Positions 6,213-34,259 of a stretch of DNA of 64,000 nucleotides are shown piece after piece. The notes beneath the pieces were generated by a model. It did not search any database. It saw only the letters and a program-made list of their open reading frames with translations, and was not told where the DNA came from. This stretch comes from a virus. Every line of letters begins with the position of its first letter. The stretch's first letter is position 1. The position numbers were made by a program, and so were the translations under genes. The stretch lies in the IMG/VR virus record IMGVR_UViG_3300036402_000045, positions 1 through 64,000 of that record; one strand, given 5' to 3'.

Positions 6213-6445
6213 GAAGAAACCTTCCGAAAGAACTCGTTGAACGCCTCGGTGCGGGCTGCGGATTGGGATTCCTTGTCGTTGACGAAGATGACCGTGTGCC
6301 ATCCAACGATATGTTGACTACTGGCGTAGGAGAAACCGTTTGCGTCCCGACCTGACATAGCAGGGACCACAGCGCGCATCTGAACCTCGGCCTTCCATCG
6401 ATCGTCGTGCTGCCGCTCGGTGACGATGTGGAACTCAATCTCCAT
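6209..6445 (-). CDS. Hypothetical protein (78 aa)
   Basis: Begins MEIEFHIVTERQ. The pattern of short strands and a C-terminal helix (AARTEAFNEFFRKV) suggests a ferredoxin-like mini-domain, as in many small phage proteins. It is coupled to both neighbours. Function is unknown. Confidence 0.6.
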   Translation of the reverse strand: MEIEFHIVTERQHDDRWKAEVQMRAVVPAMSGRDANGFSYASSQHIVGWHTVIFVNDKESQSAARTEAFNEFFRKVSS

Positions 6446-6725
6446 CGGATTCCTCCAAACGCAACGAGTCCACGTACTTCGCAAGATCGTTCTGGTACTT
6501 ACGAATCGTGTAGATGACCGGGCCGACGATGTTGTCCAACTCCTGAACGGCATCCCGAGCCTTTGCCGAGAGATCCGATGAGTCATCGGCTTCCAGACGA
6601 AGGCGAAGCTCGCTGAGGTAGATCGTCTCCTTCTTCGGGCCAACGTGGGCGAACCACTTCTCGCCCCGCATGGCGCACTTGGCAACGACGTGGACGCCCT
6701 CGATCTCGAAAGCTGTGATCCTCAT
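6435..6725 (-). CDS. Hypothetical coiled-coil protein (96 aa)
   Basis: The ATG at 6725 overlaps the upstream stop (ATGA). The N-half is beta (MRITAFEIEGVHVV) and the C-half a long charged helix, probably a short coiled coil. No recognised family. Confidence 0.6.
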   Translation of the reverse strand: MRITAFEIEGVHVVAKCAMRGEKWFAHVGPKKETIYLSELRLRLEADDSSDLSAKARDAVQELDNIVGPVIYTIRKYQNDLAKYVDSLRLEESDGD

Positions 6726-9766: not shown

Positions 9767-9976
9767 TCACGGTGATACGTGAAGTTGGCACTTCCGACAC
9801 CGCACGTCGCCATAGAAGTCCTTGTACGTGGCGTGAGAGCCGTCCCAAGCCAGATGACCGCTCTCGCAACGACATGTTTGGGCGCTGTGCAAAGCCTTCC
9901 TGACTTCGTGCTGCCATTGCAGCGAAGGCGACCAGTACCGACGCCACCGCATCCGTAGTCGTTTTGCGAATCGCAT
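9767..9976 (-). CDS. Small basic Cys-containing protein (69 aa)
   Basis: The start at 9976 overlaps the upstream stop (TAATG). An Arg-rich N-terminus (MRFAKRLRMRWRRYW) is followed by two CxC/CxxC elements (TCRCESGH and VRCRKCQ) that could bind zinc. A small nucleic-acid-binding protein is plausible. Confidence 0.5.
   Translation of the reverse strand: MRFAKRLRMRWRRYWSPSLQWQHEVRKALHSAQTCRCESGHLAWDGSHATYKDFYGDVRCRKCQLHVSP
9773..9780 (-). promoter_or_regulatory. ACGTATCA start-proximal element
   Basis: Seven bases before the ATG of the membrane protein at 9765. Confidence 0.45.
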
Positions 9977-10188
9977 TACAGCGCGTGTGGATGCGTGTTG
10001 AGCCATACGTCGATGAGCCGATCGATCGAAGTGAGATGGTGCTGCACCTGATGTTCTGCCATGTTTCGGATTTCTGTGTCCGAAAGCATCGGGTCCACTT
10101 TGTACGTGAGATCGCCAAGCGCTTCTCGTAACTCATGAAGCGCCACTCTCGCTCGATGCCCTCGCTTCTGTTGCTCGTTGTTGTCCAT
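9976..10188 (-). CDS. Hypothetical helical protein (70 aa)
   Basis: MDNNEQQKRGHR... a mostly helical protein. The ATG is six bases after GCGTATCA, supporting this start rather than the longer frame. Function is unknown. Confidence 0.55.
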   Translation of the reverse strand: MDNNEQQKRGHRARVALHELREALGDLTYKVDPMLSDTEIRNMAEHQVQHHLTSIDRLIDVWLNTHPHAL

Positions 10189-10194
10189 GCCCCG

Positions 10195-10202
10195 TGATAC
10201 GC
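10195..10202 (-). promoter_or_regulatory. GCGTATCA start-proximal element
   Basis: Six bases before the ATG at 10188; no Shine-Dalgarno lies between. Confidence 0.5.
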
Positions 10203-10388
10203 ATTTTCGGATATCGCCCCGCACCGCTCCAGCGTGTACCGCCAGTGATACAAGCGCCCATACACATGAACATTCCGAAGCGCAACAGCATTGCGCCTCT
10301 GGCTCCTTTTTGAGTTTAGAAACCCGCCTATAGGTAGCGCCCTATAGGTAGTCGCCTATGCGTAGCGCACTATACATACATCGCTATG
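10203..10388 (-). other. Gap with short A/T-centred repeats
   Basis: No supported gene. Contains a TTCCGAA site (about 10276) inside a weak TTGCGC-17-TATGGG promoter-like arrangement, then repeats of CCTATAGGTAG(T/C)GCC and related GCGTAGCGCACTATA between 10325 and 10385. Confidence 0.4.
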
Positions 10389-10493
10389 TCAGTCGCCATT
10401 GAACCTGCAAACGAGATAAGCGAGCGCAAACGCCAATGAGCCGATACCGACGTAAAGCGCCAATACGATTGCGATGATTTGCAGAACGATCAT
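10389..10493 (-). CDS. Tiny membrane protein (34 aa)
   Basis: MIVLQIIAIVLALYVG... is one continuous hydrophobic helix (about residues 2-28) with a short polar tail. The ATG at 10493 follows ACGTATCA by six bases, the same start signature as confident genes, which supports its being real despite its size. Confidence 0.5.
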   Translation of the reverse strand: MIVLQIIAIVLALYVGIGSLAFALAYLVCRFNGD

Positions 10494-10499
10494 GCGTAT

Positions 10500-10507
10500 T
10501 GATACGT
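10500..10507 (-). promoter_or_regulatory. ACGTATCA start-proximal element
   Basis: Six bases before the ATG at 10493. Confidence 0.45.
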
Positions 10508-11480
10508 AAAGCGCAAAACATTCTGAACTCGTACGAACGATTGCATTCTCAAACTCATTACGCATGACGCCTCGATACGCATTACGCAACGCATTCGCAC
10601 ACGCAATGCAAAACGTCACAGAACGATGCGCTTCAGAACGTTTCCGATCATCCCTATATGTACCTATGCGTGCACTCCGAATGGTCCTACCGACAGCCGA
10701 AAAAATGACTAGCCACTTTCGCCTAGCGCTAATGGGTGACTTCAGAATGATCCGAACTAACTAGGCATAGCTAGGTATGTATAGGTGGCTATAGGAATGG
10801 GTGAAAGCCTTATGCCGTATGGGTTTGAGCGTTCACTAACGACGGTGCCGAGGGATAAGCGGTAGGGCATAGGTGCGTATTGAGGGTAGACGAAAACGGA
10901 TTAGGGGAAACGGAATGGAATGTTCGGAAAGCAATAGACCAGAGGAATAGGCGTAGTAGGTAGCAGGGTAGGTAATGGTCATTCCCTTTCCCCTCTCGCT
11001 TTAGGCTCGAACGTAGCTAGTAGGCGTACGTATGTAGGGGGTTCGAGCGCTCCAGTACGTGACAGGAACGAGGGTAGGTAGGCGTCAAGTGTTCCGGGGT
11101 TGTGCTCCAGGGAGACGCACCTAGCGCTAGGGGTTCCCCTAAGTTCGGAAACCGTCGATGTGGCGTAGTTAGGGTCCGAACCTCGTTTCAGAGTCTTAGA
11201 CGAGGTTCTAGGGGGTTCTCAGAGGCTTCTGACAGGTAGTGGCGTATACGTATGTAGCTATGGGGTTCCGAACCTTGTCCGGAGCTAGTACGTAGAAGAA
11301 CCCCGGAATGGGGGTTCCGGGGTTCTCCAGTAGGGGTTATGGGTTCGAGCGCTCCAGCTAGCGCTAGGGGGTTCTCCAGCTAGAGCAGGAGGGTAGGCAG
11401 GTACGTGACAACGGATAGGCAGAAGAGCGTTAGGACGAGGACGGCTAGCCAGTAATCCGCCATCGTCGGCGCGGGGTTCC
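10508..11480. repeat. Repeat-rich non-coding region 1
   Basis: About 970 bp with no convincing gene. It is packed with short related words: TAGCGCTAGG, TTCGAGCGCTCCAG (about 11040 and 11343), CTAGGGGGTTCTC (about 11207 and 11368), GTACGTATGTAG and CTATAGG, plus TTCCGAA or TTCAGAA sites. Several of these words recur in region 2 (12.9-13.4 kb). The dyads (AGCGCT, GAGCGCTC, CCTAGG-like) suggest protein-binding or origin-associated sequence. Confidence 0.55.
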
Positions 11481-12902
11481 TCATGCTCGAACCTCATGAG
11501 CGTTACCGCCGAATGAGACGCTTTCCGTTCCCTTACACGTTGCCTCGTCCGCAATGAGGTATCCGTGTCCACCGTTGACGTACTGGGGGTCAAGCTCCAG
11601 CGCGATTTTGCGATACGTGCGACCTGTCAGGAAAGCGAGAATCCGAACCGCCGCGTATCCCTCCAGTTCGCCATATCCGTTGTAGACGAGAAAGCCGCGG
11701 GCGTTGTCGATATCGCCGGAAGGCTTGAGATTCTCGTCTAGGGGTTGAATCCATGCGCGCCCATTCGGACGGTCGGAATCGGAATCATCGGAATCGTAGG
11801 TCCGGATTGCGATTCCGCCCCAGTTCTTTAGAGCACACTTCGAAACCGCGTAGCCACCGGACGAGAACCAACAGGAATCGGAATGGTAGAAAGCGTCCGC
11901 GGACTGATTGAGATCACGCGTTAGCTCAATCCGAAACTCATTCTGCTTCGAAGTGTGCTGCGATGCGAGGTTACCGATTTCGGAAAGAACGTTCGCCGGA
12001 ATCTTGCATCGCAAGTCACGGTAGAAAGTCTTCGAAATCCGCTTAGTGAAGTTTCCTGCTTTGGTCTGCCACGTCGGGTCAAGTTCGCGGACAACGCGGC
12101 GGATATCCCAGCTATCTAGGACCCATTCGGTATCGGTAGCGTGCAGCCGCGCTCCGATCAGGAGGGTAACGATTGCGTCGATTCCCTCATTCGAAATGGC
12201 GCCGGAGGGAAGTTCCACCGTAAGCCTTTCGTCCGGACCCAAAGTGTCCGCGCCATTCGGAAAGCGGAATCGGAGGTTCGGCGCGACGCAATCGCAACCG
12301 GAATGATCGTGATCGGAGGAATTGTCATAGTGGTAATACTCTTCGCACGTATCGCAGTAGCCGAAATGGTAATCGATGCACGTTTCGCAAACCTCGCGGT
12401 CGTCAACTTCGCGGAGATTGACGGTGCGACGGTTGCAGATATCGCATGACGAACAATCGCAGCATTGTTCGCAGTTTCCGCAGTTTCCGCAGTATCCCTC
12501 TTCCGACGAAACCATTTCGGAGCAGGAATTGCAGTAGAAACAATCGCAATGGTTTTCGCACGCTTGGCACGTTCCACAAAGGTTTTCGTGGAAGTCGTCG
12601 CACCGATAGCCGACACATTCGGAAAGGTGGCAGGGATAGAGGTTCCACCGGACGACCCGCGCGCCGTCGCGCCACTGGTCGCGGTATCCGTGCCGCGTAC
12701 GTGTCGTCACGTAACAACCGGCGGAAATCCGGAAATGCGATTCCGGATACGTGTCGTCGTCGCAATCGTCGCAGTAGTGAGAGGCAACCCCTAGAGCAAT
12801 GGGGGTTTGAGACGAGGGAACGAGGAACGTCCCGAAAACGTTTCGGTAGCCGCGGGAACCCCTAGCCGCGGGAAGTGTGTCGGTAGCTGAAGCTTCGAAC
12901 AT
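11481..12902 (-). CDS. Large cysteine-rich protein with multiple zinc-finger-like clusters
   Basis: 473 residues. The stretch from about residue 85 to 190 holds some two dozen Cys in CxxC, CxxxC and CxC spacing (for example CGTCQACENHCDCFYC, CGNCGNCEQCCDC and CETC), which must bind several metals. The remainder is a conserved-looking mixed fold containing WGGIAIR and FRIELTRDLN. Similar Cys-rich proteins of unknown function occur in actinophages. It is isolated between two repeat-rich gaps. A weak AACATTCCGAAA box lies upstream. Base composition is lower in GC than the neighbours, with many CGA/GGA codons. Confidence 0.65.
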   Translation of the reverse strand: MFEASATDTLPAARGSRGYRNVFGTFLVPSSQTPIALGVASHYCDDCDDDTYPESHFRISAGCYVTTRTRHGYRDQWRDGARVVRWNLYPCHLSECVGYRCDDFHENLCGTCQACENHCDCFYCNSCSEMVSSEEGYCGNCGNCEQCCDCSSCDICNRRTVNLREVDDREVCETCIDYHFGYCDTCEEYYHYDNSSDHDHSGCDCVAPNLRFRFPNGADTLGPDERLTVELPSGAISNEGIDAIVTLLIGARLHATDTEWVLDSWDIRRVVRELDPTWQTKAGNFTKRISKTFYRDLRCKIPANVLSEIGNLASQHTSKQNEFRIELTRDLNQSADAFYHSDSCWFSSGGYAVSKCALKNWGGIAIRTYDSDDSDSDRPNGRAWIQPLDENLKPSGDIDNARGFLVYNGYGELEGYAAVRILAFLTGRTYRKIALELDPQYVNGGHGYLIADEATCKGTESVSFGGNAHEVRA

Positions 12903-13440
12903 GGCGGAAAGCCTTTCGGTCTGGGGGTTCCTCCGAACCCCGCAAGTGCAACGTTACACGTTTCGGAATGTTTCTGGGGTGACTTGAGGAACGCGTGCGA
13001 CGCGCGCGCACGTAGTAAGCGGATTTCCGTTCCGGAGCGCTGGAGGTTCGGAACGTTCCGATGCTCGCGATAGTTAGCGGTTTGCTAGCTGTTCGGAACG
13101 TTCCGATCCTCAAATCGCTTCAGAGGTTCGGAAACCTCGTTCCGCGTGTCGTCGGCGCGGAATGGCGGTTCCGGAGCGCTCGCGGGGTTCTAGGGGGTTC
13201 TCACGCCTAGCTAGAGGAACCGTCCGGACCGCGTGACGTAGCGCTAGGCGTGAGGTTCGGAGCGCTAGCGGTTCGGAATGTCCGATATCGACGCTTGCAA
13301 GCGCGCGGAACCCCTCATTTCGGAGTGTTCGAGCGCTCCAGCTAGCGCGGCGTGACCGCGTGCGATCGGCAGGGGACGAGCGCGCCCGCGCTCCGGAATA
13401 TTCGGTCTGCCTAACTTCAGAATGTCGGCGCGCCTAACGG
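12903..13440. repeat. Repeat-rich non-coding region 2
   Basis: About 540 bp without a supported gene. Five TTCGGAA sites cluster here, several next to CGTTCCG, forming dyads such as TTCGGAACGTTCCGA (about 13050 and 13090). TTCGAGCGCTCCAGCTAGCGC is shared with region 1, and GGAGCGCT/AGCGCTC words recur. It lies just upstream of the DnaA-box cluster, so an extended origin or regulatory region is likely. Confidence 0.55.
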
Positions 13441-13444
13441 AATG

Positions 13445-13540
13445 TGTTCGTCCACAGGTTGTGGACAAACCTGTGGAAAAGAGTTATCCTCAGGGAGATC
13501 GGAGTTTTTCCACAGCGAAATCCACAGGCTGTGGACAAGC
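13445..13540. other. DnaA-box cluster, putative replication origin
   Basis: Six box-like elements in about 85 bp: TTGTGGACAA (13459), CCTGTGGAAAA (13470), TTATCCTCA (13484), TTTTTCCACAG (13505), TCCACAG (13521) and CTGTGGACAAG (13529). They match TTGTCCACA / TTATCCACA in alternating orientation. The first two form a dyad, CCACAGGTT / AACCTGTGG. No gene covers the site and repeat arrays flank it, as in bacterial and phage oriC-like loci. Confidence 0.65.
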
Positions 13541-13685
13541 TGGGGACGACGGAGGGTATGTCCGTTTTGCCCCGGTTTGGTAGGATTCGAGGCACGTCCT
13601 CTCTTACTACGCTCTCTACTGAGGCTGTGACTTTTTGGACTTTCTCAGTTTCCGCAAACCTCTGTGACTTTCGGAAATATTCTGA
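13541..13685. other. Short gap beside the origin
   Basis: No supported gene; one TTCGGAA site lies near 13672. A plus-strand frame crossing this region from 13444 is rejected because it runs through the DnaA boxes and lacks protein-like composition. Confidence 0.4.
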
Positions 13686-13715
13686 GACGCGAAAAATCCC
13701 CGCCGAAACGGGGAT
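13686..13715 (-). terminator. Intrinsic terminator with CGCGTC tail
   Basis: On the minus strand: stem ATCCCCG / CGGGGAT with a 6-base loop, then TTTT and CGCGTC. It ends the minus operon whose last gene is 13745-14143. Confidence 0.8.
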
Positions 13716-13744
13716 CTCCGCATGACGATCAGTTACATAGGTGA

Positions 13745-14143
13745 CTATGCGCTAGGCGTGTCCTCCTTTGGAGTCGTCGTAGCCGGTGCGTACGTCGGCA
13801 CAGGTTCGGGTGTTGGCTCCGTAGTAGGCGCAGCCTGCGGAACCCTGTAGACGGGAAGAGTCGTGGTTGTGGCCTCGATGTCCGAAACCCTGTTCTCCAG
13901 TGACCCAACCCGATCCTCAACCGTTGCGGGCTTCTGAGGCTCTGTAACGATCACAGGGGCCTCGGTGACATCAGTAGTGCCCAATGTGGTTTCCGGTGCT
14001 CCTGCGGGATCTGAGACGGTAGAAGCGGGATTCTGAAGTCGTGTCTCAGGCGCATCCCACAAGGACAGGACAGCGAACGTGGCGAGAACGCTTGCGATCG
14101 CGGCCGCTGCCATCGGCACAATGAGGTTCCGAGACGCCCTCAT
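13745..14143 (-). CDS. Single-span membrane-anchored Pro/Thr-rich protein
   Basis: 132 residues from an ATG overlapping the upstream stop (ATGA). A basic start (MRASRN) leads into one hydrophobic helix at about residues 8-29. A short charged coil (VEDRVGSLENRVSDIEATTTT) follows and then a Pro/Thr-rich tail (TTEPTPEPVPTYAP). The topology suggests an envelope-facing extracytoplasmic tail. Such proteins may alter the host surface; function is unproven. Confidence 0.6.
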   Translation of the reverse strand: MRASRNLIVPMAAAAIASVLATFAVLSLWDAPETRLQNPASTVSDPAGAPETTLGTTDVTEAPVIVTEPQKPATVEDRVGSLENRVSDIEATTTTLPVYRVPQAAPTTEPTPEPVPTYAPATTTPKEDTPSA

Positions 14144-21390: not shown

Positions 21391-21551
21391 AAGAGAGATC
21401 GGATACCGAGGGTTGAATCCCTTGGTCCGATCTCTCTTGCACCGGCTAGGTAGCGGTCCTTCCCTCCGGTGTGTGAGCTTCATCGTCTCCCGGTTACCAG
21501 CGTCGTCGCAAGAGGACTGTCGGTTGGCCGGGAGAGGCTGCCGCGCTAAGT
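21391..21551 (-). ncRNA. Candidate structured small RNA with own promoter and terminator
   Basis: No convincing gene lies between the promoter at 21558-21586 and the gene at 21359. The predicted transcript folds into an 8-bp stem TCTCCCGG / CCGGGAGA, then CACCGG / CCGGTG, and ends in a 13-bp hairpin AAGAGAGATCGGA / TCCGATCTCTCTT followed by CGCGTC. Promoter, folded body and terminator together suggest a roughly 160-nt non-coding RNA. A structured leader for the downstream gene is the alternative. Confidence 0.5.
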
Positions 21552-21557
21552 AGTGCC

Positions 21558-21586
21558 AGTGAAGCACCGTTCGGAATGTCTGTCAA
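21558..21586 (-). promoter_or_regulatory. Promoter with TTCCGAA in spacer
   Basis: TTGACA -17 bp- TTCACT, spacer containing GACATTCCGAAC. The next start codon is about 190 bp away, so this promoter serves the RNA at 21391-21551. Confidence 0.7.
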
Positions 21587-22131
21587 CCCCGAAGTGCAAT
21601 CCACCAGCAACGAGGCCAACCGGATCGGGAACCGCCTCGCCCTCCGATCATGCCAAGCCATCGAACCGCTGCCTCTCTCTGCACTTCGTAGCTCTCGGAG
21701 CCGTTGATTCCGACCTTCGATGCTGTGTCACGGGAGAACTGGAAGTAGCCGAGATACTTGCCCGATCGTCCATCGGCGGATTCGCAGTTCGCCAACCGCC
21801 TCCAGAAGTCAGGAGAGGGGTCTGTGGTCGCTTCTGTGGGCTTCGGAGTGTTCGTCGGTACTGATGGCGCATACCGACGACTTCGATCAGCACGGGCTTT
21901 CTGAAGAGCCACCTTGCGGTTCCGTTCGATCGCAGCGCCCCACCGCTCGATTCGATCTGCCTGAGCCGCTTGCTCCCAAGCAATGCTTTCGGAAAGTCCT
22001 GCCGTTGGATCTGCTGTTGGGACTGATGCCGCTGTCTCAAGCGTCGTGCTCGAAGCCTCCGCAGTACCGCACGCCGATACCGCGGAGCCAAGACTGAGCA
22101 GAGCGCCCAATAAGGCGAGCCATCGTTTCAT
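21583..22131 (-). CDS. Lipoprotein with Rpf/transglycosylase-like domain
   Basis: 182 residues from MKRWLALLGALL. A signal peptide ends in a lipobox with the lipidated Cys at residue 21 (SAVSAC). A Thr/Pro/Ala-rich linker leads to a C-terminal domain reading DFWRRLANCESADG...YLGYFQFS...WP-CW. This matches resuscitation-promoting-factor/lysozyme-like domains: catalytic Glu in CES, and a Cys pair. It should sit on the outer face of the membrane and trim peptidoglycan. A GAAAGGG ribosome site precedes the ATG. The catalytic role is inferred from the motif. Confidence 0.75.
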   Translation of the reverse strand: MKRWLALLGALLSLGSAVSACGTAEASSTTLETAASVPTADPTAGLSESIAWEQAAQADRIERWGAAIERNRKVALQKARADRSRRYAPSVPTNTPKPTEATTDPSPDFWRRLANCESADGRSGKYLGYFQFSRDTASKVGINGSESYEVQREAAVRWLGMIGGRGGSRSGWPRCWWIALRG

Positions 22132-22170
22132 GGTGATCCCTTTCTTCGGATACTTCCTTTGATACGACAA

Positions 22171-22190
22171 AACGACCCCGAAGGGCCGTT
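22171..22190 (-). terminator. Short intrinsic terminator
   Basis: Minus-strand stem ACGGCCC / GGGTCGT-type with a tight loop followed by TTTT, between 22262-22450 and the lipoprotein gene. A TCGTATCA variant follows at about 22158-22165. Confidence 0.6.
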
Positions 22191-22214
22191 CGTCCGAAGT
22201 TTAGGGATGGTGGA

Positions 22215-22251
22215 GTCGGTGGGTCAACCCCGTGCGGATCAACCCACCGAC
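22215..22251 (-). terminator. Hairpin downstream of 22262-22450
   Basis: A 10-bp perfect inverted repeat GTCGGTGGGT / ACCCACCGAC just after the stop of the small minus gene. Confidence 0.55.
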
Positions 22252-22261
22252 CCCGTTTCGT

Positions 22262-22450
22262 TCAGGCGGCGACCGTGGCCGTAGCCGCGTCCCGCAGCAC
22301 CCGACGAGCAAGTTCGACGGCGTTCTCGGTGCTCAAGCCCGACTCCAGAGCTTCCTTCCCGAGATCCAACGCGGAGAGGAAGACACCGCTCTGGCGGTCG
22401 ATGCCAAGTACCGAAGCCGATTCGGTGAGGGCAATCAGAAGGTCTTCCAT
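22262..22450 (-). CDS. Small helical protein, leaderless (62 aa)
   Basis: MEDLLIALTESASVLGI... entirely helical (ENAVELARRVLRDAATATVAA). Promoter TTTACA-17-TATAGT ends seven bases before the ATG. Monocistronic: it has its own promoter and a hairpin after it, implying independent control. Function is unknown. Confidence 0.6.
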   Translation of the reverse strand: MEDLLIALTESASVLGIDRQSGVFLSALDLGKEALESGLSTENAVELARRVLRDAATATVAA

Positions 22451-22457
22451 ATTCCGA

Positions 22458-22486
22458 ACTATACCGATCCGCTGAAGCCCTGTAAA
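22458..22486 (-). promoter_or_regulatory. Promoter with TTCGGAA between -10 and start
   Basis: TTTACA -17 bp- TATAGT; here TTCGGAA overlaps the last base of the -10 and runs to the ATG rather than sitting in the spacer. Good consensus match. Confidence 0.75.
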
Positions 22487-22502
22487 CGGATTTCTTTGCC
22501 CA

Positions 22503-22542
22503 GACGCGAGAATCCCCCGGAAGGGACGAGCTTCCGGGGGAT
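22503..22542 (-). terminator. Hairpin terminator with CGCGTC tail
   Basis: Stem ATCCCCCGGAAG / CTTCCGGGGGAT on the minus strand, then a short gap and CGCGTC. It terminates the operon ending in gene 22572-23540. Confidence 0.75.
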
Positions 22543-22571
22543 CTCTAAGGGCTTGAGCGGGGAGCGTGCTC

Positions 22572-23540
22572 TTACCCCTTGGTGGCCTTGGCAGCCTTCT
22601 TCGACGGTACACGACCGTTCTTGGAGCCAGGATCATCAGACGAACCGACCACGAACACCTTGATCGTTCCCTCGATGCCACGACCCGTGCGGATCACGCC
22701 AAAGCCGAACTTGTCCCGCATGGTCTGAGCCGCAAGCAGAAGCCGCTTGTCGAAGTCCAGAAGGTCGATGGCTTCCGTCTCCTTCTGGTACGGATGCAGT
22801 TCCACCTTTTCGGAAAGCTTCGTGGCAAGCGTCTGCCGGTTGCCGCCGCGGAACAGGAGCGGAGCGACGTGGAAGAGGTTGGCGTTCTTGCGGAACGGGT
22901 TGATCTTCTCCGTGGCCTTCGTGACCCCTACCTTCGGGTACGTGACCCGAACGGAATCCTTCGTGGCTCCGGTGCCGCCCGGAGTGCGCGGACGCTCCTT
23001 CTTGGCAGCTTCCCGAGCAGGCGTCTTCTTGGCAGGAGCCGTCTTCTTCGCAGCGGGAACCTTGCGAGCAGGGGCCGTCTTGCGAGGGCCTGTCGAAGCC
23101 TTGCGAGCAGGGGCCGGTGCGGTCTTCGCAGGCTTGTCGCTCTGCGCTTCCTCAACGGCGCTGCGAAGCTCCTTCAGACCCATCGACTCGTACCCCTTGA
23201 TGCCGAGGCTGCGAGCCATCTTCTGAAGCTCCTTGGCCTTCGGCTTGTCGATGGTCTTGGGCATGTGTTCCTTGATCCTTTCCGAATCATTCAGTTGTGC
23301 GGACTTTACAATGTCTCTGGTCGGTTGTCCACCAGAAACTTGTGAAATGGAGACGATAACCGGAAATGGGTCGTCTCCAATCACAATCTTCGCCCGGTGT
23401 TGACTTGTCTTCTCGATCAAGCACGACTTGATCGGCCCCTTGGCAGGGATATACCAGGCCCCTTTACCGGCGACGAGGGGAAGCCCGTCTGCTCCGAGCA
23501 CGGGCGCGCGCTCCGGTCGGTTCTTCATCCTCGTCGTCAT
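22572..23540 (-). CDS. Lys/Ala/Pro-rich protein with SAP-like domain
   Basis: Up to 322 residues. KAKELQKMARSLGIKGYESMGLKELRSAVEE is a SAP/Rho-N-like DNA-binding unit. It is followed by a histone-H1-like Lys/Ala/Pro tail (AARKVPAAKKTAPAKK type) and a folded C-terminal domain ending VFVVGSSDDPGSKNG. The start is ambiguous: ATG 23540 gives 76 bp of overlap with the upstream gene, while ATG 23264 (MPKTIDKPK) has an AAGGA site and would drop a plausible N-terminal beta domain. Probably a DNA-organising protein. Confidence 0.6.
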   Translation of the reverse strand: MTTRMKNRPERAPVLGADGLPLVAGKGAWYIPAKGPIKSCLIEKTSQHRAKIVIGDDPFPVIVSISQVSGGQPTRDIVKSAQLNDSERIKEHMPKTIDKPKAKELQKMARSLGIKGYESMGLKELRSAVEEAQSDKPAKTAPAPARKASTGPRKTAPARKVPAAKKTAPAKKTPAREAAKKERPRTPGGTGATKDSVRVTYPKVGVTKATEKINPFRKNANLFHVAPLLFRGGNRQTLATKLSEKVELHPYQKETEAIDLLDFDKRLLLAAQTMRDKFGFGVIRTGRGIEGTIKVFVVGSSDDPGSKNGRVPSKKAAKATKG

Positions 23541-23859
23541 CCACTTCCACCCTTCGAACTAGTCGTTGATATTTCCGAACTCGTCGCTCAAGCTCTGCCT
23601 CGTTGAACTCATCGATGAGTGCTGCTGTTCGCTTCAGTTCCTCTTGGCTGTCGTTCTTGGCGAGGCGTTCATGCCAGAACGAAAACCGAATGTGTGCCGT
23701 CGTGTCTGCGATCGGAATCGTGACCCCAACCTCGGAACCCATTCGCACTCGACCATCCGAAAGCTTCTCGATTACCGCTGCGGATCTTTCCCGCGCAACA
23801 TGAGAGCGGTCGGTGGTAACGCCCTTCTTTGGGGTGCTTCTGCTTTGCGTTGGTGCCAT
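23464..23859 (-). CDS. Hypothetical charged protein (131 aa)
   Basis: MAPTQSRSTPKKGV... a central beta region (GSEVGVTIPIADTTAHIRFSFWHERL) then a charged helix and an acidic/Arg-rich tail. It overlaps the HTH gene above by about 90 bp and the SAP-like gene below by up to 76 bp, so one or more boundaries may be wrong. Function is unknown. Confidence 0.5.
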   Translation of the reverse strand: MAPTQSRSTPKKGVTTDRSHVARERSAAVIEKLSDGRVRMGSEVGVTIPIADTTAHIRFSFWHERLAKNDSQEELKRTAALIDEFNEAELERRVRKYQRLVRRVEVDDDEDEEPTGARARARSRRASPRRR

Positions 23860-24026
23860 GCCAGGATCTCTCTCGCTTGTTCGGTTGACCAAAGCTTCGT
23901 CCCGTGATGAACGATCTCGGGTTTCGGAATGTCACCGTTCTTGTACCAGGCTTTGACGGCCTCGGTTGTTACCCCGCAGTACCGGCCCAGTTGTCCGACC
24001 GTCCGGTAACCGCGGGGCCTAGCCAT
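23772..24026 (-). CDS. MerR/excisionase-like HTH protein (84 aa)
   Basis: The first 60 residues read YRTVGQLGRYCGVTTEAVKAWYKNGDIPKP...WSTEQAREIL, the winged-helix pattern of MerR/Xis-type DNA-binding domains. It could regulate transcription; no integrase is seen in the window, so an excisionase role is unsupported. Confidence 0.65.
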   Translation of the reverse strand: MARPRGYRTVGQLGRYCGVTTEAVKAWYKNGDIPKPEIVHHGTKLWSTEQAREILAWHQRKAEAPQRRALPPTALMLRGKDPQR

Positions 24027-24234
24027 CGAACCTGATGCCCGCTCTCTCGATGACGTATCGCCATTCAGCGTCGGTCAATTCCTCGCCCGTCAACCGAGCA
24101 CCTTCGATCCAGCGAACATACTTAGCGAAAGCCTCGTTCTCCTTCGTAAGCCGCTCGTTCTCTTCCGTCAGATCCACGATCGTCTCGGCCTGATTGCGGT
24201 TGCGCTTCTGGAGGATCTTCTTCGGAGCGGCCAT
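24019..24234 (-). CDS. Leucine-zipper-like protein (71 aa)
   Basis: MAAPKKILQKRNRNQAETIVDLTEENERLTKENEAF... a basic region followed by a heptad helix, resembling a tiny bZIP. It overlaps the HTH gene by eight bases, so the two may act together. Function is inferred only from pattern. Confidence 0.6.
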   Translation of the reverse strand: MAAPKKILQKRNRNQAETIVDLTEENERLTKENEAFAKYVRWIEGARLTGEELTDAEWRYVIERAGIRFDG

Positions 24235-24519
24235 TTACTGCTGGCCGTTGTTGCAGGAGATGGCGAGCGTCTTTTCCGAATCTCCACTGATGACGACACA
24301 CTTCCCTGGCTTCGGAGCGTCGATGTTCGTCACCGTGTAGAGGTAGTTCTTGCAATCACTCCGATTGCAAGAGGACTTGTCCGTCTTGAAATACTCCAGA
24401 TACTCCTGCCGTGCTCCGGAGAGCACCCGGTCGTTGTCGGTGTTCTTGGCGGCGTATGCCGCAGCACCGCCACCGAACGTCACCGCCCCGAGGATGAATC
24501 CTGCGATGAGCTTCTTCAT
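24235..24519 (-). CDS. Secreted small Cys protein (94 aa)
   Basis: A signal peptide (MKKLIAGFILGAVTFGGGAAAYA) with a plausible cleavage after AYA, then a mature domain with four Cys (SSCNRSDCKN...KCVV...SCNN) that probably form two disulfides. It would act in the cell envelope or outside. No family is recognised. Confidence 0.65.
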   Translation of the reverse strand: MKKLIAGFILGAVTFGGGAAAYAAKNTDNDRVLSGARQEYLEYFKTDKSSCNRSDCKNYLYTVTNIDAPKPGKCVVISGDSEKTLAISCNNGQQ

Positions 24520-25493
24520 GCTGCGTCTCCTTCGTTCTCAAGGAGGAACGCGGTCACGTCCTCCCACCTTGTTGATACGGCTTTCAGAAGTTCCTTCTCG
24601 GCGTTCTCCTTCGCAAGCGAAGCTGCCCAGATGACTTCATCCCGATACTCCGCAACGCTTTCCTCGATGAGCGCCACCAGCACGTCAGGGGACAACGCAT
24701 CAAGCTCCCACGATTCCCGTCCGTAGCGCTCCACATAGCCCGCATAGCGAGAGTCCGTGATCTTGGCCGGGTTGGGCGGCGGATTGAAATGCTGGATCTG
24801 ATCCATGTTGAGAGCGATGCGATCGATCTTGAAGTTCTGACGCATCATCCTCATGGCGGTTGCGGCGGTCGTCTTGTGATCCCGCATGAGATCAGTCGCG
24901 ATGAAGCGCTCAAGCCGCTCCCTGATGTCTCTCGTCATATCCATGCCCGAGGGATCGTGATCGCCCAGATGGATGACGGTGACCTTCTTCCCGTCGTTGA
25001 CGTAGCCCCGCAGACGGTTCGACGTTTCCCACATTTCCGAAAGCGACGTGTAGCCGCGGCAGGAGAAGTACGGAACATCAAGCCGAGGACAGACGGCTTC
25101 GAGCACACCAACGAGAGCGTCCTTCTCGATCCATACTTCGACCCGACAGGGCTGATCCTTCCACTTGTCGTGGCGGAACTGAGCCGCTGTGTCCTTCAGG
25201 ATCTCAACCGGTGACTTCCAATGCGGAAGCGAACGCAGGTTGCGTGTGCGGTCAACGAGGTAGTTCCAATCGAGCAGGCCCGCCATGCGAGCATCCCCGA
25301 TGATCTTTCCGAGACGCGCATACTCCTGTTGCCGATTCGGAATGTAACCCCGAGCGACGAACTGGTAGTAAAGCTGGCGAAGGGTTAGGTCATAACCCTG
25401 CTGTGCGTACTCCGCACAGATCTGATTCGCCATAGCGATGATCTGTCGGTGCTGCGGAGAGAACCGCTTTCGGATATAGGCGCGCCGAGGCAT
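24516..25493 (-). CDS. TopoVI-A/Spo11-like (Mini-A type) Toprim protein
   Basis: 325 residues. An N-terminal winged-helix-like region carries TLRQLYYQFVARGY at about 37-50, matching the R-x-x-Y-Y catalytic-tyrosine motif of TopoVI-A/Spo11. A Toprim fold follows, with Glu123 (WIEKDAL) and HLGDHDPSG at about 175-183 supplying the metal-binding acids. Length fits the reduced Mini-A group reported in mobile elements. It may make double-strand breaks or act in DNA topology. No B-subunit ATPase is seen nearby. Confidence 0.65.
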   Translation of the reverse strand: MPRRAYIRKRFSPQHRQIIAMANQICAEYAQQGYDLTLRQLYYQFVARGYIPNRQQEYARLGKIIGDARMAGLLDWNYLVDRTRNLRSLPHWKSPVEILKDTAAQFRHDKWKDQPCRVEVWIEKDALVGVLEAVCPRLDVPYFSCRGYTSLSEMWETSNRLRGYVNDGKKVTVIHLGDHDPSGMDMTRDIRERLERFIATDLMRDHKTTAATAMRMMRQNFKIDRIALNMDQIQHFNPPPNPAKITDSRYAGYVERYGRESWELDALSPDVLVALIEESVAEYRDEVIWAASLAKENAEKELLKAVSTRWEDVTAFLLENEGDAA

Positions 25494-25646
25494 TCAATCC
25501 TCGACCCATTCCTCGAAGTCAACGCAAGGGCAATCCTCGATGTCTCCCATCTTTGGATCTGCCTTGACGGCGCAAGGACGGAATGTTTCCTGATCGTCGT
25601 GCTCGTCAAGCACATGACCGCACGTACACATCGCGTCGTCGTCCAT
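25494..25646 (-). CDS. Small acidic Cys protein (50 aa)
   Basis: MDDDAMCTCGHVLDEHDDQETFRPC... contains CxCGH, a later Cys and CPC, suggesting a single zinc knuckle in a very acidic chain. It starts on the stop of the upstream gene (TGATG). Function is unknown. Confidence 0.55.
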   Translation of the reverse strand: MDDDAMCTCGHVLDEHDDQETFRPCAVKADPKMGDIEDCPCVDFEEWVED

Positions 25647-26065
25647 CAGTTCGACGCTCCTTCAGTGAGATCAATCACGCGATACTGGACACTTTGGCCT
25701 TCGAGAGTTTCTTCCGCTTCCCAAACCATCTCGTCAAAGTTCGTACGCAGGTAAATCTCCCATCCACGCTTCGGATTCCGGGCGACAACAAGCCATTGCC
25801 CAGTGTTCGGAAAATCCTGCCAATGCCCCCATGTCGGAAGATCCTCTTCTGGATTGCGATAGGTCGCTACAGCAACCACCCGCACCGACTCAGGCTTGAC
25901 CCAGATCTCTTCCGTGGAGAAGTCAGCATGAGGAACACTGACAAGCCGACACTGTTCCGAATCGTTGGAGCAGACAAGATACCGAGCACCGGATTCACGA
26001 CGCTGTGCCCAGACGCCCGTGCCGTTGCCGACATAGACCACGATGTCACCGAGCTTCGGATTCAT
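25646..26065 (-). CDS. Hypothetical protein (139 aa)
   Basis: MNPKLGDIVVYVGNGTGVWAQRR... begins like an SH3-type barrel and includes Trp-rich segments (LPTWGHWQDFPNTGQWL). Its N-terminus resembles the phage protein at 41857 (TIGRIVIYRTDG), so the two may be distant paralogues. Function is unknown. Confidence 0.6.
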   Translation of the reverse strand: MNPKLGDIVVYVGNGTGVWAQRRESGARYLVCSNDSEQCRLVSVPHADFSTEEIWVKPESVRVVAVATYRNPEEDLPTWGHWQDFPNTGQWLVVARNPKRGWEIYLRTNFDEMVWEAEETLEGQSVQYRVIDLTEGASN

Positions 26066-26568
26066 CAGTCTCCCGTCCCGTGAGAAGGACGGATATACGG
26101 AGCGTTCATGGTGATCGTCGTGTGCTTCGCCACGATCTCAGCATCGATCTTGCCCTCCTGCACCGCCGCAGCAAGACCCGATGTATCGAGCGCCACGTTC
26201 ACAGCGCTGGCGACACCGTTCGTCTTCAGAACGTCCATGAGCGCCCGCTGAACCTCCGCAGGAAGCTCGCTCAGGACGAGAGAGCGCCGGTATGCCAAAC
26301 GCCGCTGCGCGGGCTTGAGATCGCCGTAGAGAGCATCTCCGTCGATGTTGATGTTCTCGGTCTGGACCCGCGTGACCTTCGTGCCGTCGTCAGCGGTCAG
26401 GCTCGTCGTTCCCCGAATCTGAAGCTCTTCGCAGATCGAATCCTGAATGCCCTTCTTCGTCTTCTTGGCACGACCCTCGATCTCGGCTTGACGCTCGTAC
26501 TCCGCGACGAGCACGAAGATCTCGGAGTCCTTGAGCCGCTTCTTAGCCTTCGTCGGCTTGTCAGGCAT
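26065..26568 (-). CDS. Hypothetical helical protein (167 aa)
   Basis: The start at 26568 (MPDKPTKAKKRL) has an AAAGGAG site; the longer frame is a shadow. It is a charged helical protein with a central ADDGTKVTRVQTENINIDG beta segment. The pattern resembles phage host-nuclease inhibitor or RecB-inhibitor-like proteins only vaguely, so no call is made. Confidence 0.6.
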   Translation of the reverse strand: MPDKPTKAKKRLKDSEIFVLVAEYERQAEIEGRAKKTKKGIQDSICEELQIRGTTSLTADDGTKVTRVQTENINIDGDALYGDLKPAQRRLAYRRSLVLSELPAEVQRALMDVLKTNGVASAVNVALDTSGLAAAVQEGKIDAEIVAKHTTITMNAPYIRPSHGTGD

Positions 26569-26818
26569 CGGCGTTCTCCTTTCGGATTTCGGCCAGAGCA
26601 AGCTGCGCCACCAGTGACGACGCCTTGGCCTTCGAGAAGCCCGTGATCCCGTGAGCCTTGGCAAGCTCCCGGAGATCCTTGACCTTCATCGCTTCGAGAT
26701 CCGCCACGCCGAGACGCTTGGACCGAGCGATGCACTCGTTCGGAACCGAAGTGCGGTTGGTCGTGTTGTGATGGGCGCGGCGATCGTGCTTGGCCGAACG
26801 CTGGTTCTTGGTCGCCAT
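26561..26818 (-). CDS. Small SAP/Rho-N-like DNA-binding protein (85 aa)
   Basis: A basic N-terminus (ATKNQRSAKHDRRAHH) and a C-terminal unit VADLEAMKVKDLRELAKAHGITGFSKAKASSLVAQL, the helix-turn-helix of SAP/Rho-N domains. It probably binds DNA or RNA. One of at least five proteins in this window with such a module. Confidence 0.65.
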   Translation of the reverse strand: MATKNQRSAKHDRRAHHNTTNRTSVPNECIARSKRLGVADLEAMKVKDLRELAKAHGITGFSKAKASSLVAQLALAEIRKENADA

Positions 26819-27012
26819 CAGACCGCCGCCGTCTTCCGAACCGGACGGCGAAGAGCCGTGGCGATGCGGTCACACCGCGCCAGAAGAGCGGGCTTGTCAG
26901 CCTGAGCGATGAAGCGGTCCGAGCGAACAGCGAGCACCTTGTCAGCCACGACATTCCGGAGGTACTCAAGATCACTCCGCTCGATCTCGATTGTCACCTT
27001 GTTCTTGTCCAT
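26818..27012 (-). CDS. Small hypothetical protein, near-leaderless (64 aa)
   Basis: MDKNKVTIEIERSDLEYLRNVVADKVL... beta strand followed by helices. The start at 27012 is set by a promoter whose -10 (TAAGGT) ends seven bases upstream. No family is recognised. Confidence 0.6.
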   Translation of the reverse strand: MDKNKVTIEIERSDLEYLRNVVADKVLAVRSDRFIAQADKPALLARCDRIATALRRPVRKTAAV

Positions 27013-27019
27013 GCCCCTC

Positions 27020-27048
27020 ACCTTAGTAGAATGTTTCCGAAGTTGCAA
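27020..27048 (-). promoter_or_regulatory. Promoter with TTCGGAA in spacer
   Basis: TTGCAA -17 bp- TAAGGT, spacer beginning CTTCGGAAACATTC. Confidence 0.6.
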
Positions 27049-27061
27049 GTCGAAATTTCAG

Positions 27062-27532
27062 TCAGCGCAGATTTTGGAGAATCGCTCTGCGCTCCATGAG
27101 CAGGATGCCCAAGAGGTTCGAGCCTGCCCAGTGTCCGGAAGGCGTGCGCGTCATGCCCCAGATCCGATCGCCCCAAGTGTTGCCTTCGACCAAGATGGCG
27201 TTGCCCGTGGCAAGCAGATCGTTAGCGAGCGTTTGGGTTTCCGAAAACTTGCATGACAGAGCGAAGCGCATGACTTCGATCTTCCGTTGCTCCCAGTCAT
27301 CAGCGAGCGGAGCCTTGCGACCGAGCTTCTTGGCATTGCCCGCGTTGCTTGCCGTGAGAATGCGCTGTTGCCATTCAGGATCGTCTGTCTTCGCTGCCTG
27401 ATAGTGATGTTCCACCGTGGCGTAAGGAACGCCCCTGAGACGATAAGGAGAGGCATAGAAGTTCGACAGGAACCCGTGCGGTCCGTCCAGCCGAAAGTCA
27501 TCGATGATCGTGTAGCCCAACGCCTTCTTCAC
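27062..27532 (-). CDS. NADAR-family protein (putative ADP-ribose N-glycosidase)
   Basis: 156 residues covering a whole NADAR (DUF1768) domain: FLSNFYASPY at 21-30, TVEHHYQAAK at 39-48 and a late WGDRIWGM. Family members remove ADP-ribose from nucleobases, and some reverse DarT-type DNA ADP-ribosylation. In a phage this would suit defence against DarTG-like toxins or NAD-derived signals; that role is inferred. The upstream spacing is tight to the promoter region of the previous gene. Confidence 0.8.
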   Translation of the reverse strand: MKKALGYTIIDDFRLDGPHGFLSNFYASPYRLRGVPYATVEHHYQAAKTDDPEWQQRILTASNAGNAKKLGRKAPLADDWEQRKIEVMRFALSCKFSETQTLANDLLATGNAILVEGNTWGDRIWGMTRTPSGHWAGSNLLGILLMERRAILQNLR

Positions 27533-27798
27533 TTCTCAAGCCCCTTCAGAAACTCAGTGACAAAAGCGAAACACTCGTCGTCCGTTGCGTCGTCAAACGC
27601 AACCGGCTCTGCTCCGTCTCCATACATGCGCCACCCAACAGCATCGGTGCCGTCGTCATTGGGAACCAATGCAAGAGCAAAGCCGCGAGGATGAAACACA
27701 ACCCGGTTGATGAGCCAAAGCATTCCAAGGCTCCGAAGTTCCTCGAAGGAATGCACCGTCTCTTCGGGAACCGTGTCGAATACGGACTTGCGCGTCAT
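27529..27798 (-). CDS. Hypothetical protein (89 aa)
   Basis: MTRKSVFDTVPEETVHSFEELRSLGMLW... The start overlaps the upstream stop (ATGA), and its end overlaps the NADAR start, so it is co-translated with NADAR. Mixed fold with an acidic DDATDDE stretch. No family is recognised. Confidence 0.6.
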   Translation of the reverse strand: MTRKSVFDTVPEETVHSFEELRSLGMLWLINRVVFHPRGFALALVPNDDGTDAVGWRMYGDGAEPVAFDDATDDECFAFVTEFLKGLEK

Positions 27799-28055
27799 TT
27801 CAGAATCTCGATCTCGTTGTCGTAGAAGTAGTAGATGTCGTGGAACCCGTTGATGCGGTCCATCAACCAATCGTGAACGGGAATCCGAATCTCCGGACCC
27901 TGCCACGGACAAAGCAGAACCTTGTTCGGGTACTTGTCGGAGTCGTTCTCCAACAGAACGCCCTCAGACCCCTCGAAGAAGCGTCCAGAGGGATCGTTGT
28001 ATGCAACCCGGACCCGAATGGCATCGGGGCTTGCAAGAGCCTCTTCGGGCGTCAC
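27795..28055 (-). CDS. Hypothetical beta-rich protein (86 aa)
   Basis: Starts with GTG on the stop of the SNF2 gene. An SH3-like pattern (RVRVAYNDPSGRFFEGSEGVLLEND...) is followed by an aromatic tail (YYFYDNEIEIL). It is the middle member of the SNF2-NADAR operon. Function is unknown. Confidence 0.6.
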   Translation of the reverse strand: MTPEEALASPDAIRVRVAYNDPSGRFFEGSEGVLLENDSDKYPNKVLLCPWQGPEIRIPVHDWLMDRINGFHDIYYFYDNEIEILK

Positions 28056-29809
28056 AGGAGATCCCGAATGTTCTGGAGCGTGATGCGCTCGATCTGTCGG
28101 CCACCGTCTCGCTCGATGGTCCGGTTGGCAAGCGCCCGCTTGTAGTTCAGGAGCGCTTCGATCCTCTGCTCGATCGTGTCTTCGGCCTGAAGCTCGATGA
28201 CGTTGACCGTCGTGGCAAGAGCCTCCAGGCCACGCAGACCGCCCGCTGCGGAACGCCCGATGGCCTGATCGTTACCTGCCGGTGTCCAACCCTTGTCGGT
28301 GAAGACGACGTAGGTGGCAACGCCAAGGTTGATGGCCTCGCGGTTCGCATCGATGGTTCCGATGTAGAGCTTGCAATCCTCGTCGTTGTTGAACCTTCGG
28401 ATTTCCTCCTGCCGACGACGCAGGTTGATCTCACCGGTGACATACGCCGGGGAATAAGCCTCAAGCTCCCGCTGGATGATGCGGGTTGCCTTGCTCCACT
28501 GGGAGAAGATGATCGCCTTCTCACCGTTGGCGACAAGCTCCCGAACGATGTCCTTCAGTTCGACGATCTTGGCCGAATCCTTCGACCCGCCGTAAAGCTC
28601 CGGAGAGAAGCAAGCCTGCTTCAGCCGGATGATCTGCGGAAGAGCACCGTTGATGTTTCGGATTTCGCCGTTGTCCATGCGAAGGATGAACTCGTCACGG
28701 ATCTCGTTGTAGAGCGCCCGAGCTTCACGGGTCAGTTCGATCACGCGGGGAGCGATGATGACCTTCGGAAGATCCTTGAGCACCTGATCCTTGCGACGAC
28801 GCAGGGAGATGTTCTGAATGAAGTCCCGAAGCTCGCCCATCGGCTCCGGGCGGTAGCCAACCGTGGCACCGCCGTTCTTGATGGAGATCGCGTCCACGAA
28901 CCGGTCGTAGATCGGAAAGTCTTCCGGGTAGAGCTTGTGCAGAACGCTCCAGATCTCTTCCGGACGATTCAGGATCGGCGTGCCCGACATCATCAGCCAA
29001 CGCTTGCCCTCAAGCTGGAAGAAGCCACGCGTGACCTGAGCATCCGGAGTCTTCACCCGATGGTGCTCATCAACCACGATGAAGTCGTACTCGAATCCGA
29101 AAAGCTCTTCGTTGGCGAACTCGTATCCGATGATCTTCTTGTGAACGTTGCCGTCCTCGTAGATCGGCTTGGCCCGGATCGCCTCAAAGTTGACGACGGT
29201 GATCTCGGCCCGCTTCTCGATCTGTGCAGAGCGCTCTGCGCGTGTTCCGTTGACGACCTGAACCTCGAAGTCGAACTTGTCCGTGGCTTCAGATTCCCAG
29301 TTGAACTTCGCGCTGTTCGGGCAGACGACGAGCGTGCGGAACTGCTTGCCCTTCTTCTCGGCCTTCACCGCCATGATGCGGATCGCAGCCAGAAGCATGA
29401 TGGTCTTCCCTAGACCCATCTCGTCATTGAGAAGATCGATCTCTTCCTCCAGGATCTTCCCGACCGCAACCTTCTGGAAGTTGTAGAGCTTGCCTTCGAA
29501 GCCCGGAATCCGAAGCTTCGGAATCGGCATATCCGCAAGCCGCTTCTCTTCGGCTCGCGTTAGCCGTGCGTAGACGCCCTTCGAAAGCTCTGCCATCGGG
29601 AACGCCAACGACAGACGATCGAAGTACCGCATGTTGAACCGGAAGAGCCACTTGCTCAATTCCTGGTCGTACTCCGCAACGGGATCGGTGCCGAGAGGAA
29701 GGATCTCGCGCATGATGACGCTCTGCGCCTCGTACTTCTCGCTGGAGTCACACATCAAGACGATGTGCTTGCCCCTCGGATCGTTCTTCTTCGACAAGGT
29801 GATCTTCAC
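28052..29809 (-). CDS. SNF2/DEAD-like superfamily 2 helicase
   Basis: About 585 residues. Motif I is DEMGLGKTI, motif II is VVDEHHR (DEHH), motif III MMSGTP, and motif VI DQAIGRSAAGG, where the usual final Arg is missing. The two RecA-like lobes are of usual length. Such phage helicases remodel DNA-protein complexes in replication or recombination. The promoter -10 at 29818-29823 predicts that RNA starts near the GTG at 29809 (MKITLSKKND), so upstream TTG/GTG starts are less likely. Confidence 0.88.
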   Translation of the reverse strand: MKITLSKKNDPRGKHIVLMCDSSEKYEAQSVIMREILPLGTDPVAEYDQELSKWLFRFNMRYFDRLSLAFPMAELSKGVYARLTRAEEKRLADMPIPKLRIPGFEGKLYNFQKVAVGKILEEEIDLLNDEMGLGKTIMLLAAIRIMAVKAEKKGKQFRTLVVCPNSAKFNWESEATDKFDFEVQVVNGTRAERSAQIEKRAEITVVNFEAIRAKPIYEDGNVHKKIIGYEFANEELFGFEYDFIVVDEHHRVKTPDAQVTRGFFQLEGKRWLMMSGTPILNRPEEIWSVLHKLYPEDFPIYDRFVDAISIKNGGATVGYRPEPMGELRDFIQNISLRRRKDQVLKDLPKVIIAPRVIELTREARALYNEIRDEFILRMDNGEIRNINGALPQIIRLKQACFSPELYGGSKDSAKIVELKDIVRELVANGEKAIIFSQWSKATRIIQRELEAYSPAYVTGEINLRRRQEEIRRFNNDEDCKLYIGTIDANREAINLGVATYVVFTDKGWTPAGNDQAIGRSAAGGLRGLEALATTVNVIELQAEDTIEQRIEALLNYKRALANRTIERDGGRQIERITLQNIRDLL

Positions 29810-29817
29810 AAGCACCA

Positions 29818-29846
29818 ATCTAACAGCTTCGGAATGTTTACGTCAA
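29818..29846 (-). promoter_or_regulatory. Promoter with TTCCGAA in spacer
   Basis: TTGACG -17 bp- TTAGAT, spacer containing AAACATTCCGAAG; drives the SNF2 operon. Confidence 0.72.
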
Positions 29847-29863
29847 GCGAATATTCGGAAACC

Positions 29864-29986
29864 CAGAGAGGGTCCGGTCGCCTTTCCCCGTCCGATCCCC
29901 CGCCAAGGGAATCGTGGGTTAGTGAACGCTTGGGGAAAAGCGCAGGCGACCTTGATCTCCGAAAGGCTGGAGACTGACCCTCTCTG
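29864..29986 (-). ncRNA. Candidate highly structured RNA (123 nt)
   Basis: No gene fits this gap. On the minus strand an outer 11-bp stem CAGAGAGGGTC / GACCCTCTCTG closes the element. Inside are TCTCC / GGAGA, a long arm GGTCGCC...TTTCCCC / GGGGAAA...GGCGACC, and an inner hairpin CGAT-CCC / GGG-ATCG. CGCTT / AAGCG offers an alternative fold. GCGTATCA ends five bases before the first stem base, like a promoter with its start site. It is a small RNA, or possibly a leader of the SNF2 operon. Confidence 0.6.
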
Positions 29987-29991
29987 AGACT

Positions 29992-29999
29992 TGATACGC
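29992..29999 (-). promoter_or_regulatory. GCGTATCA element before structured RNA
   Basis: Ends five bases before the outer stem of the RNA at 29864-29986; no start codon follows, so it marks transcription rather than translation. Confidence 0.6.
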
Positions 30000-30002
30000 A
30001 GA

Positions 30003-30842
30003 TCAGCGAACCTCGGAAGGCGTGATCTCGCTGCGTAGAATCCTCGCTCTGGCCCTCTCGATGCGCTCTGCGGCTGCGCGAGCATCGGCCTCGGCCATCT
30101 GTCGGCGTTGGGCCTCCAGACGCTCACGGCGCTCTCTGGCGATGCGCTCTTCCTCTGCTCGAACAGCCACCACGTTGACATACCGGACCGGTGCCTGAAT
30201 TCGGTACCGCGGGTGCTCCACTTGGCAGAAGTCTGAAGGGCAAGCGCCCTCCGTGCTGCCTTCGGACTGGGCGTTGCAATGAAAGCAACGAGGCGTGAAC
30301 TCGATCGTCACGGCCCGCTGCGGGAAGTGAAGTGAACGCTCCGAGAAGAGCCGATCGCGGCCGATGTCGTGAACGAGCATCAGAAGCTCTTCGGCCATCG
30401 TCACGTACGTCTCTTCCGCATCAGAAGCGAACCGCCGCCACAGCTTCATCTCACCGCGACGCGTGATGTAGGCAAACGCCTTGTAACGCCCATCGATGTA
30501 GCGCTTGAGCACACGCTGACCCGTGAGATCGCCCGACGTAACGAGATGCACGTTGTAGCGGTGAGTTTCGGAAATCCCCGTAACCTCGTAGACGCCATTG
30601 GGAACGTTCCAGCCATCGAACTCTGTCGCCACGTCATCGATGGAACGACCGGCAAGCTGCGTTGCCAGAGCCTCGACCGCTGCCGTCTGCTCCACGGTAA
30701 GGGTCAAGCTCGATCCGAGAACGTCGGAGTACCGCTGCATGTCTGCATGAAAGCGAACAGCCGGATCACTCAGGATCGAGACAACCTGCGGGAACGCAGA
30801 GAACCACGCGGGATCGAGGTTGGTGATGTTGTAGGTCGGCAT
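30003..30842 (-). CDS. Hypothetical protein with C-terminal coiled coil, leaderless (279 aa)
   Basis: A central folded domain (GVYEVTGISETHRYNVHLVTSGDLTG...) precedes a Cys/His cluster (CFHCNAQSEG...CPSDFC) that could bind zinc, and a C-terminal Arg/Glu/Ala coiled coil. The ATG is six bases after TAGGAT. No enzyme signature is visible, but the domain layout resembles nucleic-acid-binding proteins. Confidence 0.65.
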   Translation of the reverse strand: MPTYNITNLDPAWFSAFPQVVSILSDPAVRFHADMQRYSDVLGSSLTLTVEQTAAVEALATQLAGRSIDDVATEFDGWNVPNGVYEVTGISETHRYNVHLVTSGDLTGQRVLKRYIDGRYKAFAYITRRGEMKLWRRFASDAEETYVTMAEELLMLVHDIGRDRLFSERSLHFPQRAVTIEFTPRCFHCNAQSEGSTEGACPSDFCQVEHPRYRIQAPVRYVNVVAVRAEEERIARERRERLEAQRRQMAEADARAAAERIERARARILRSEITPSEVR

Positions 30843-30848
30843 ACAGAG

Positions 30849-30877: not shown

Positions 30878-30903
30878 GACGGAGATTGCTAAGCGGCAGA
30901 TTT

Positions 30904-34258: not shown

Positions 34259-34259
34259 C

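Follow-up and report, generated by a model that had tools for sequence, protein, structure and literature searches.

A recurrent DnaA-box triple in gene-free DNA of large phages, a candidate oriC-like origin

Host-type DnaA boxes in bacterial origins, in T5, and in the window

The closest described systems to the locus reported here are the bacterial oriC, with the rpmH-dnaA region, and the injection stop signal (iss) of phage T5 (Demerecviridae). The bacterial regions carry host-type 9-mers with a cooperative 3-bp spacing and AT-rich DNA nearby. In vivo, the DnaA of E. coli favors two boxes separated by 2-3 bp, and paired DnaA boxes are DnaA regulatory targets in that species (PMC11317965). 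TTGTCCACA is the high-affinity box of Streptomyces and Mycobacterium (PMC4285127), and TTTTCCACA is a cyanobacterial DnaA box (PMC4674748). The T5 iss (AY543070 9140-10149) is a gene-free block of ~1 kb with repeats, palindromes, and DnaA-box pairs at 12-bp steps, situated inside the 10.2-kb terminal repeat that enters the cell first, and DnaA boxes are among the reported ISS features (PMC13250531). Our locus resembles oriC in its boxes and spacing, and perhaps in its neighboring AT-rich DNA, but has no dnaA or dnaN gene beside it. It resembles the T5 iss in its overall anatomy, but is built of a full triple of boxes where T5 has tandem pairs, and it lies in a contig with no detected end repeat.

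The window analyzed is the first 64 kb of the 89,782-bp IMG/VR virus contig IMGVR_UViG_3300036402_000045. Between 13448 and 13538 (91 bp) it carries seven DnaA-type 9-mers. Six of these have no more than one mismatch, and the six boxes counted in the initial annotation are therefore a fair description of a real cluster. The plus-strand boxes are TCGTCCACA (13448-13456, one mismatch), the weak TTATCCTCA (13484-13492), TTTTCCACA (13506-13514), and the weak AAATCCACA (13518-13526), which has two mismatches and a TCCACA core. The minus-strand boxes are a second TTTTCCACA (13472-13480) and two copies of TTGTCCACA (13460-13468 and 13530-13538), both perfect matches to the actinobacterial consensus (taken from PMC4285127). 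Their order is + - - + + + -, and the boxes do not strictly alternate in direction as had been annotated.

The arrangement is that of one triple in two facing copies, + - - / + + -. The first copy (13448-13480, plus) proceeds in 12-bp steps, and its syntax is also found in Wakanda, Faust, and 50 IMG/VR contigs; the second, inverted copy (13506-13538, minus) forms with it an inverted repeat (I1) with 31-nt arms that are 77% complementary. Each triple comprises a head-to-head pair and a tandem pair with 3-bp spacers, and every triple described here includes a pair at the spacing that E. coli DnaA prefers. The weak TTATCCTCA box lies between the triples, where the DNA is not AT-rich.

This cluster, the only one in the whole 89,782-bp contig, is host-type and exceeds chance, as an oriC-like origin should. 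Among 200 first-order Markov genomes, the maximum number of boxes per 100 bp was two in 158, three in 33, and four in 4. Start-to-start spacings are 12, 12, 12, 22, 12, and 12 bp; under random non-overlapping placement, the probability of at least five of six being 12 bp is ~8e-5, and that of any equal spacing is 9e-4. These two results rule out chance or artefact as the source of the array. Loose box matches over the whole window were at chance level (14 versus 14.9 expected), so the signal lies in clustering. A coding repeat was considered as another reading of the array and rejected.

The array sits in a gene-free gap at approximately 12903-13744, bordered on the right by a small minus-strand ORF (13745-14141); gene calls based on codon usage leave 12903-14139 free. 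Repeats and palindromes are present in this gap, in agreement with the original description of a gene-free region with repeats, and include two palindromes TCGGAACGTTCCGA and related repeats (D5 and I2) at 13043-13111. Like the iss, the window combines repeats, palindromes, and DnaA boxes in one gene-free block. A 50-bp stretch at 13632-13681, 94 bp from the last box, is a candidate unwinding region; it is one of only six such spots in the whole contig with an AT content of at least 0.62. One sigma-70-like site overlaps the array, no gene start adjoins it in the window, and Rfam, tRNA, and terminator searches found nothing.

A second gene-free stretch (9814-11480) has repeats in common with the array gap: 11343-11364 is identical to 13327-13348, and a further repeat is shared by 11201-11221 and 13183-13203. 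Between the two stretches lies a Cys-rich ORF of 473 aa (11481-12902, minus). We looked for an initiator of the phage's own, of the lambda O/iteron type, and found this ORF, flanked by repeat-sharing DNA, for which a family search gave no match. It is possible that it encodes a DNA-binding protein.

Replication genes and relatives of the phage

The phage encodes much of a replisome on the plus strand: a DnaB-like replicative helicase (37902-39176; PF03796, 1.2e-20; phrog_19, 2e-46), a DnaG-like primase (42614-43663; family match), an SSB-like single-strand DNA-binding protein (44792-45571; weak family match to phrog_14578, 2e-9), DNA polymerase III alpha (49296-52334; PF07733, 4e-63), and a RecA/UvsX recombinase (52768-54003; PF00154, 5e-53). 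A Cas4-like exonuclease and ThyX are encoded as well. The order of the replication genes is largely that of Streptomyces phage Wakanda. No DnaA domain or homologue was detected in the phage, nor any IstB/DnaC-type AAA+ loader at the curated level; the search for DnaA and loader genes returned only sub-threshold P-loop matches, for IstB, in the two relatives described below.

Phage records held no close relatives at the DNA level. Two more distant relatives, G001 and G002, have PolIII identities of 54% and 44%, respectively, and both are syntenic and permuted; no terminal repeat was found in the window contig. G002 has three box clusters; two share a 1.5-kb gap whose map position corresponds to that of the window array, 8.6-9.2 kb from terL in G002 compared to 10 kb in the window. 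G001, the closer relative by PolIII identity, has no box array, and genes fill the corresponding place. A gene neighboring the array was also considered as a marker of the element and rejected, as none of its 14 homologues (including that of G001) has a box cluster within ~6 kb. Two further features of the genome are of note. Compared with G001 and G002, a block of genes at ~22.5-35.7 kb (window 21500-37000) is inverted relative to its flanks, and at 33239-35688 (minus) a class-II glutamine amidotransferase gene adjoins an amidoligase (PF12224) gene.

Recurrence of the triple and host matching of its boxes

A search with a 121-bp query gave the first pointer to Streptomyces phages and cyanophages. 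Fifty IMG/VR contigs contain the exact triple TCCACAGGnTGTGGAnAAaCCTGTGGA. In 257 Gb of bacterial and archaeal genome sequence it was found at just three places, which makes it much more frequent in phage contigs than in chromosomes. One of the genomic places follows a dnaA gene, among 11 box cores in ~500 bp; of the others, one is inside a long open frame and one is in a Corynebacterium MAG. In 43 of the 50 contigs the triple lies outside long open frames. It is located in gene-free gaps of 1.4-1.6 kb in the Stanwilliamsviridae (Streptomyces phages), and in the T4-like cyanophages (Kyanoviridae) a triple built of TTTTCCACA also occupies gene-free gaps; 22 of 23 cyanobacterial-type triples are in non-coding DNA. 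A GC-rich version, present in six contigs, was dropped because all copies were within long open frames. The expectation in the initial annotation that phages with their own replisome seldom carry such arrays thus does not hold for several groups of large phages, the Stanwilliamsviridae and Kyanoviridae among them. We found no description of the triple in the open-licence papers searched.

The head-to-head pair alone was seen in 19 of 148 actinomycete genomes, in four of them between rpmH and dnaA. Among the viral matches listed, pairs with 5-bp spacing were more often in arrays than pairs with 3-bp spacing, so we do not claim spacing alone as a phage hallmark. Some contigs are far denser in boxes: L005 (29 kb; 6261-6524 and further) and G005 (129 kb; 115399-115729) have at least 16 DnaA boxes in ~300 bp.

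The element of the Stanwilliamsviridae (Wakanda, Faust, and Samisti12) is like that of the window in box syntax, and these phages also have largely the replication gene order of the window phage. However, their proteins are only ~22-37% identical to those of the window phage, the element is ~72 kb from dnaB compared to 24 kb in the window, and the window differs in having two inverted triples and TTGTCCACA boxes.

The box variants differ from group to group: TTTTCCACA accounts for 18 of 18 boxes in cyanophage gaps, and TTATCCACA for 12 of 12 in Streptomyces phage gaps and 3 of 3 in the T5 terminal repeat. Members of one phage group have related loci, and these counts are not independent. The variant follows the host phylum. 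Because the Streptomyces phages use TTATCCACA rather than TTGTCCACA, the match is only to a set of boxes acceptable at the level of the phylum.

These observations admit a broader proposal, which we offer tentatively and with more doubt than confidence. The triple may be a phage-specific, portable module common to unrelated large phages (Stanwilliamsviridae, T4-like cyanophages, freshwater actinophages, and, in reduced form, T5-like phages), with its 9-mers re-tuned to the DnaA of each host, giving a host-dependent start to phages with complete replisomes; the T5 iss would then be the same module in another role.

Origin activity and other possible roles

We regard the array as an element bound by host DnaA, and an oriC-like phage origin as its most likely role, a reading in which our confidence and our doubt are about equal. 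The steps that follow are inferred from sequence features: the host initiator DnaA would bind to the array, with the two inverted triples nucleating its cooperative assembly. Nearby AT-rich DNA, of which 13632-13681 is the candidate, would then be opened, and the phage's own DnaB-type helicase would be loaded there. The first round of phage replication would thus start at the array, with the phage replisome and recombination taking over later.

Binding of the array by host DnaA is well supported by inference from the host-matched box variants, the 3-bp spacer, the presence of the pair between rpmH and dnaA, and the lack of a detectable phage DnaA or curated-level loader. To this extent the DnaA-dependent origin of the initial annotation stands. 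Across 31 deduplicated loci, AT content in the 50 bp past the third box exceeds that of the surroundings (P = 0.016; P = 0.08 for the cyanophages alone), as would be expected of an unwinding element, while the other side shows no such excess. The origin role itself is plausible, but is weakened by the near-identical anatomy of the T5 iss, for which another function has been proposed, by the absence of an array from G001 and of box clusters near homologues of the neighboring gene, by the lack of AT-richness between the window's triples, and by inconsistent GC skew. The skew minimum is near the element in G002; in the window phage it falls at 42.6 kb, and only a numerical flip of the 21.5-37 kb block brings it close to the element. 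GC skew was accordingly rejected as proof of an origin, given this inconsistency among phages. In two contigs with end overlaps, G011 (triple at 11.1 kb) and G012 (triple at 12.65 kb), the triple is within ~0.8 kb of the cumulative GC-skew maximum.

The main rival, and a serious one even though we consider it unlikely, is that the array is an injection stop of the T5 kind, in which gene-free repeats, palindromes, and DnaA boxes arrest DNA entry once a first segment is in, the brake being either host DnaA or DNA structure. Such a stop would be expected to go with two-step transfer that requires A1/A2-like proteins. Beyond the likeness to the iss itself, the injection-stop reading is favored by the position of the element in several phages: matches in T5-like records fall at ~8.6-10.6 kb, the Stanwilliamsviridae element is ~7 kb (Loccivirinae) or 10.7-12.6 kb (Boydwoodruffvirinae) from the right end, and in Samisti12 it is just 45-90 bp outside a 10,666-bp terminal repeat. 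Yet the element of Faust is 6.3 kb from its 772-bp terminal repeat, and the nearer end is 19 kb away in Lactococcus phage 949 and ~35 kb away in AM4. The same triple is also present in the Kyanoviridae, T4-like cyanophages whose genomes are circularly permuted and some of whose records are circular. A permuted genome gives no meaning to a stop at a set distance from an end, and a T5-style stop therefore cannot explain the cyanophage members. The origin and injection-stop roles could coexist in different phages.

It is improbable, in our judgment, that the array instead titrates host DnaA or acts as a DnaA-regulated switch of nearby phage promoters, and so slows host initiation or sets the timing of early genes. 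The regulatory role of paired boxes in E. coli, the overlapping sigma-70-like site, and the very many boxes in some contigs (G005) are in keeping with it, but a single copy with seven sites offers little capacity for titration, which does not need a fixed triple syntax, and a switch is hard to reconcile with the lack of a gene starting next to the array. At the R6K A-site, helicase is loaded on single-stranded DNA by a hairpin that contains DnaA boxes, and the window array could likewise act as a nucleic-acid structure (a cruciform, an RNA hairpin, or an A-site-like box hairpin) rather than as a double-strand DnaA array. Its two inverted triples do fold strongly (-45.7 kcal/mol, z -4.8), but there is no terminator-like site at the array, and single triples elsewhere preserve the right box (AA end in 25 of 31) but not the pairing (third pair in only 13 of 31). 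Retention of the right box without hairpin pairing makes protein binding to duplex boxes the likelier constraint; the boxes rather than the hairpin seem to be the conserved feature, and we consider a structural role very unlikely.

Returning to the origin reading, the element bears on the initiation of the first replication round in lytic phages that encode their own replisome, cyanophages and large Streptomyces phages among them. That it recurs in unrelated viruses infecting soil bacteria and cyanobacteria suggests that many still use a host starter, or a T5-like stop signal, at one gene-free spot. As a searchable element with host-matched DnaA boxes, it makes the start of replication testable in culturable phages such as Wakanda, Faust, and S-PM2, and it gives reason to ask whether the DnaA boxes of T5's long-puzzling injection stop signal are functional.

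The only non-box 16-mer common to the gaps of the window and Wakanda is TATGTCCGTTTTGCCC, at 13557-13572 (plus) in the window and beside the boxes at 119005-119020 in Wakanda (NC_070785), on the same side of the boxes in both. Related AAAACGGACA/CAAATCGGACAT repeats also occur in the 1,773-bp terminal repeat of Wakanda (181-260), and the TGTGCAAATCCGACAT repeats of the T5 iss look similar to these.
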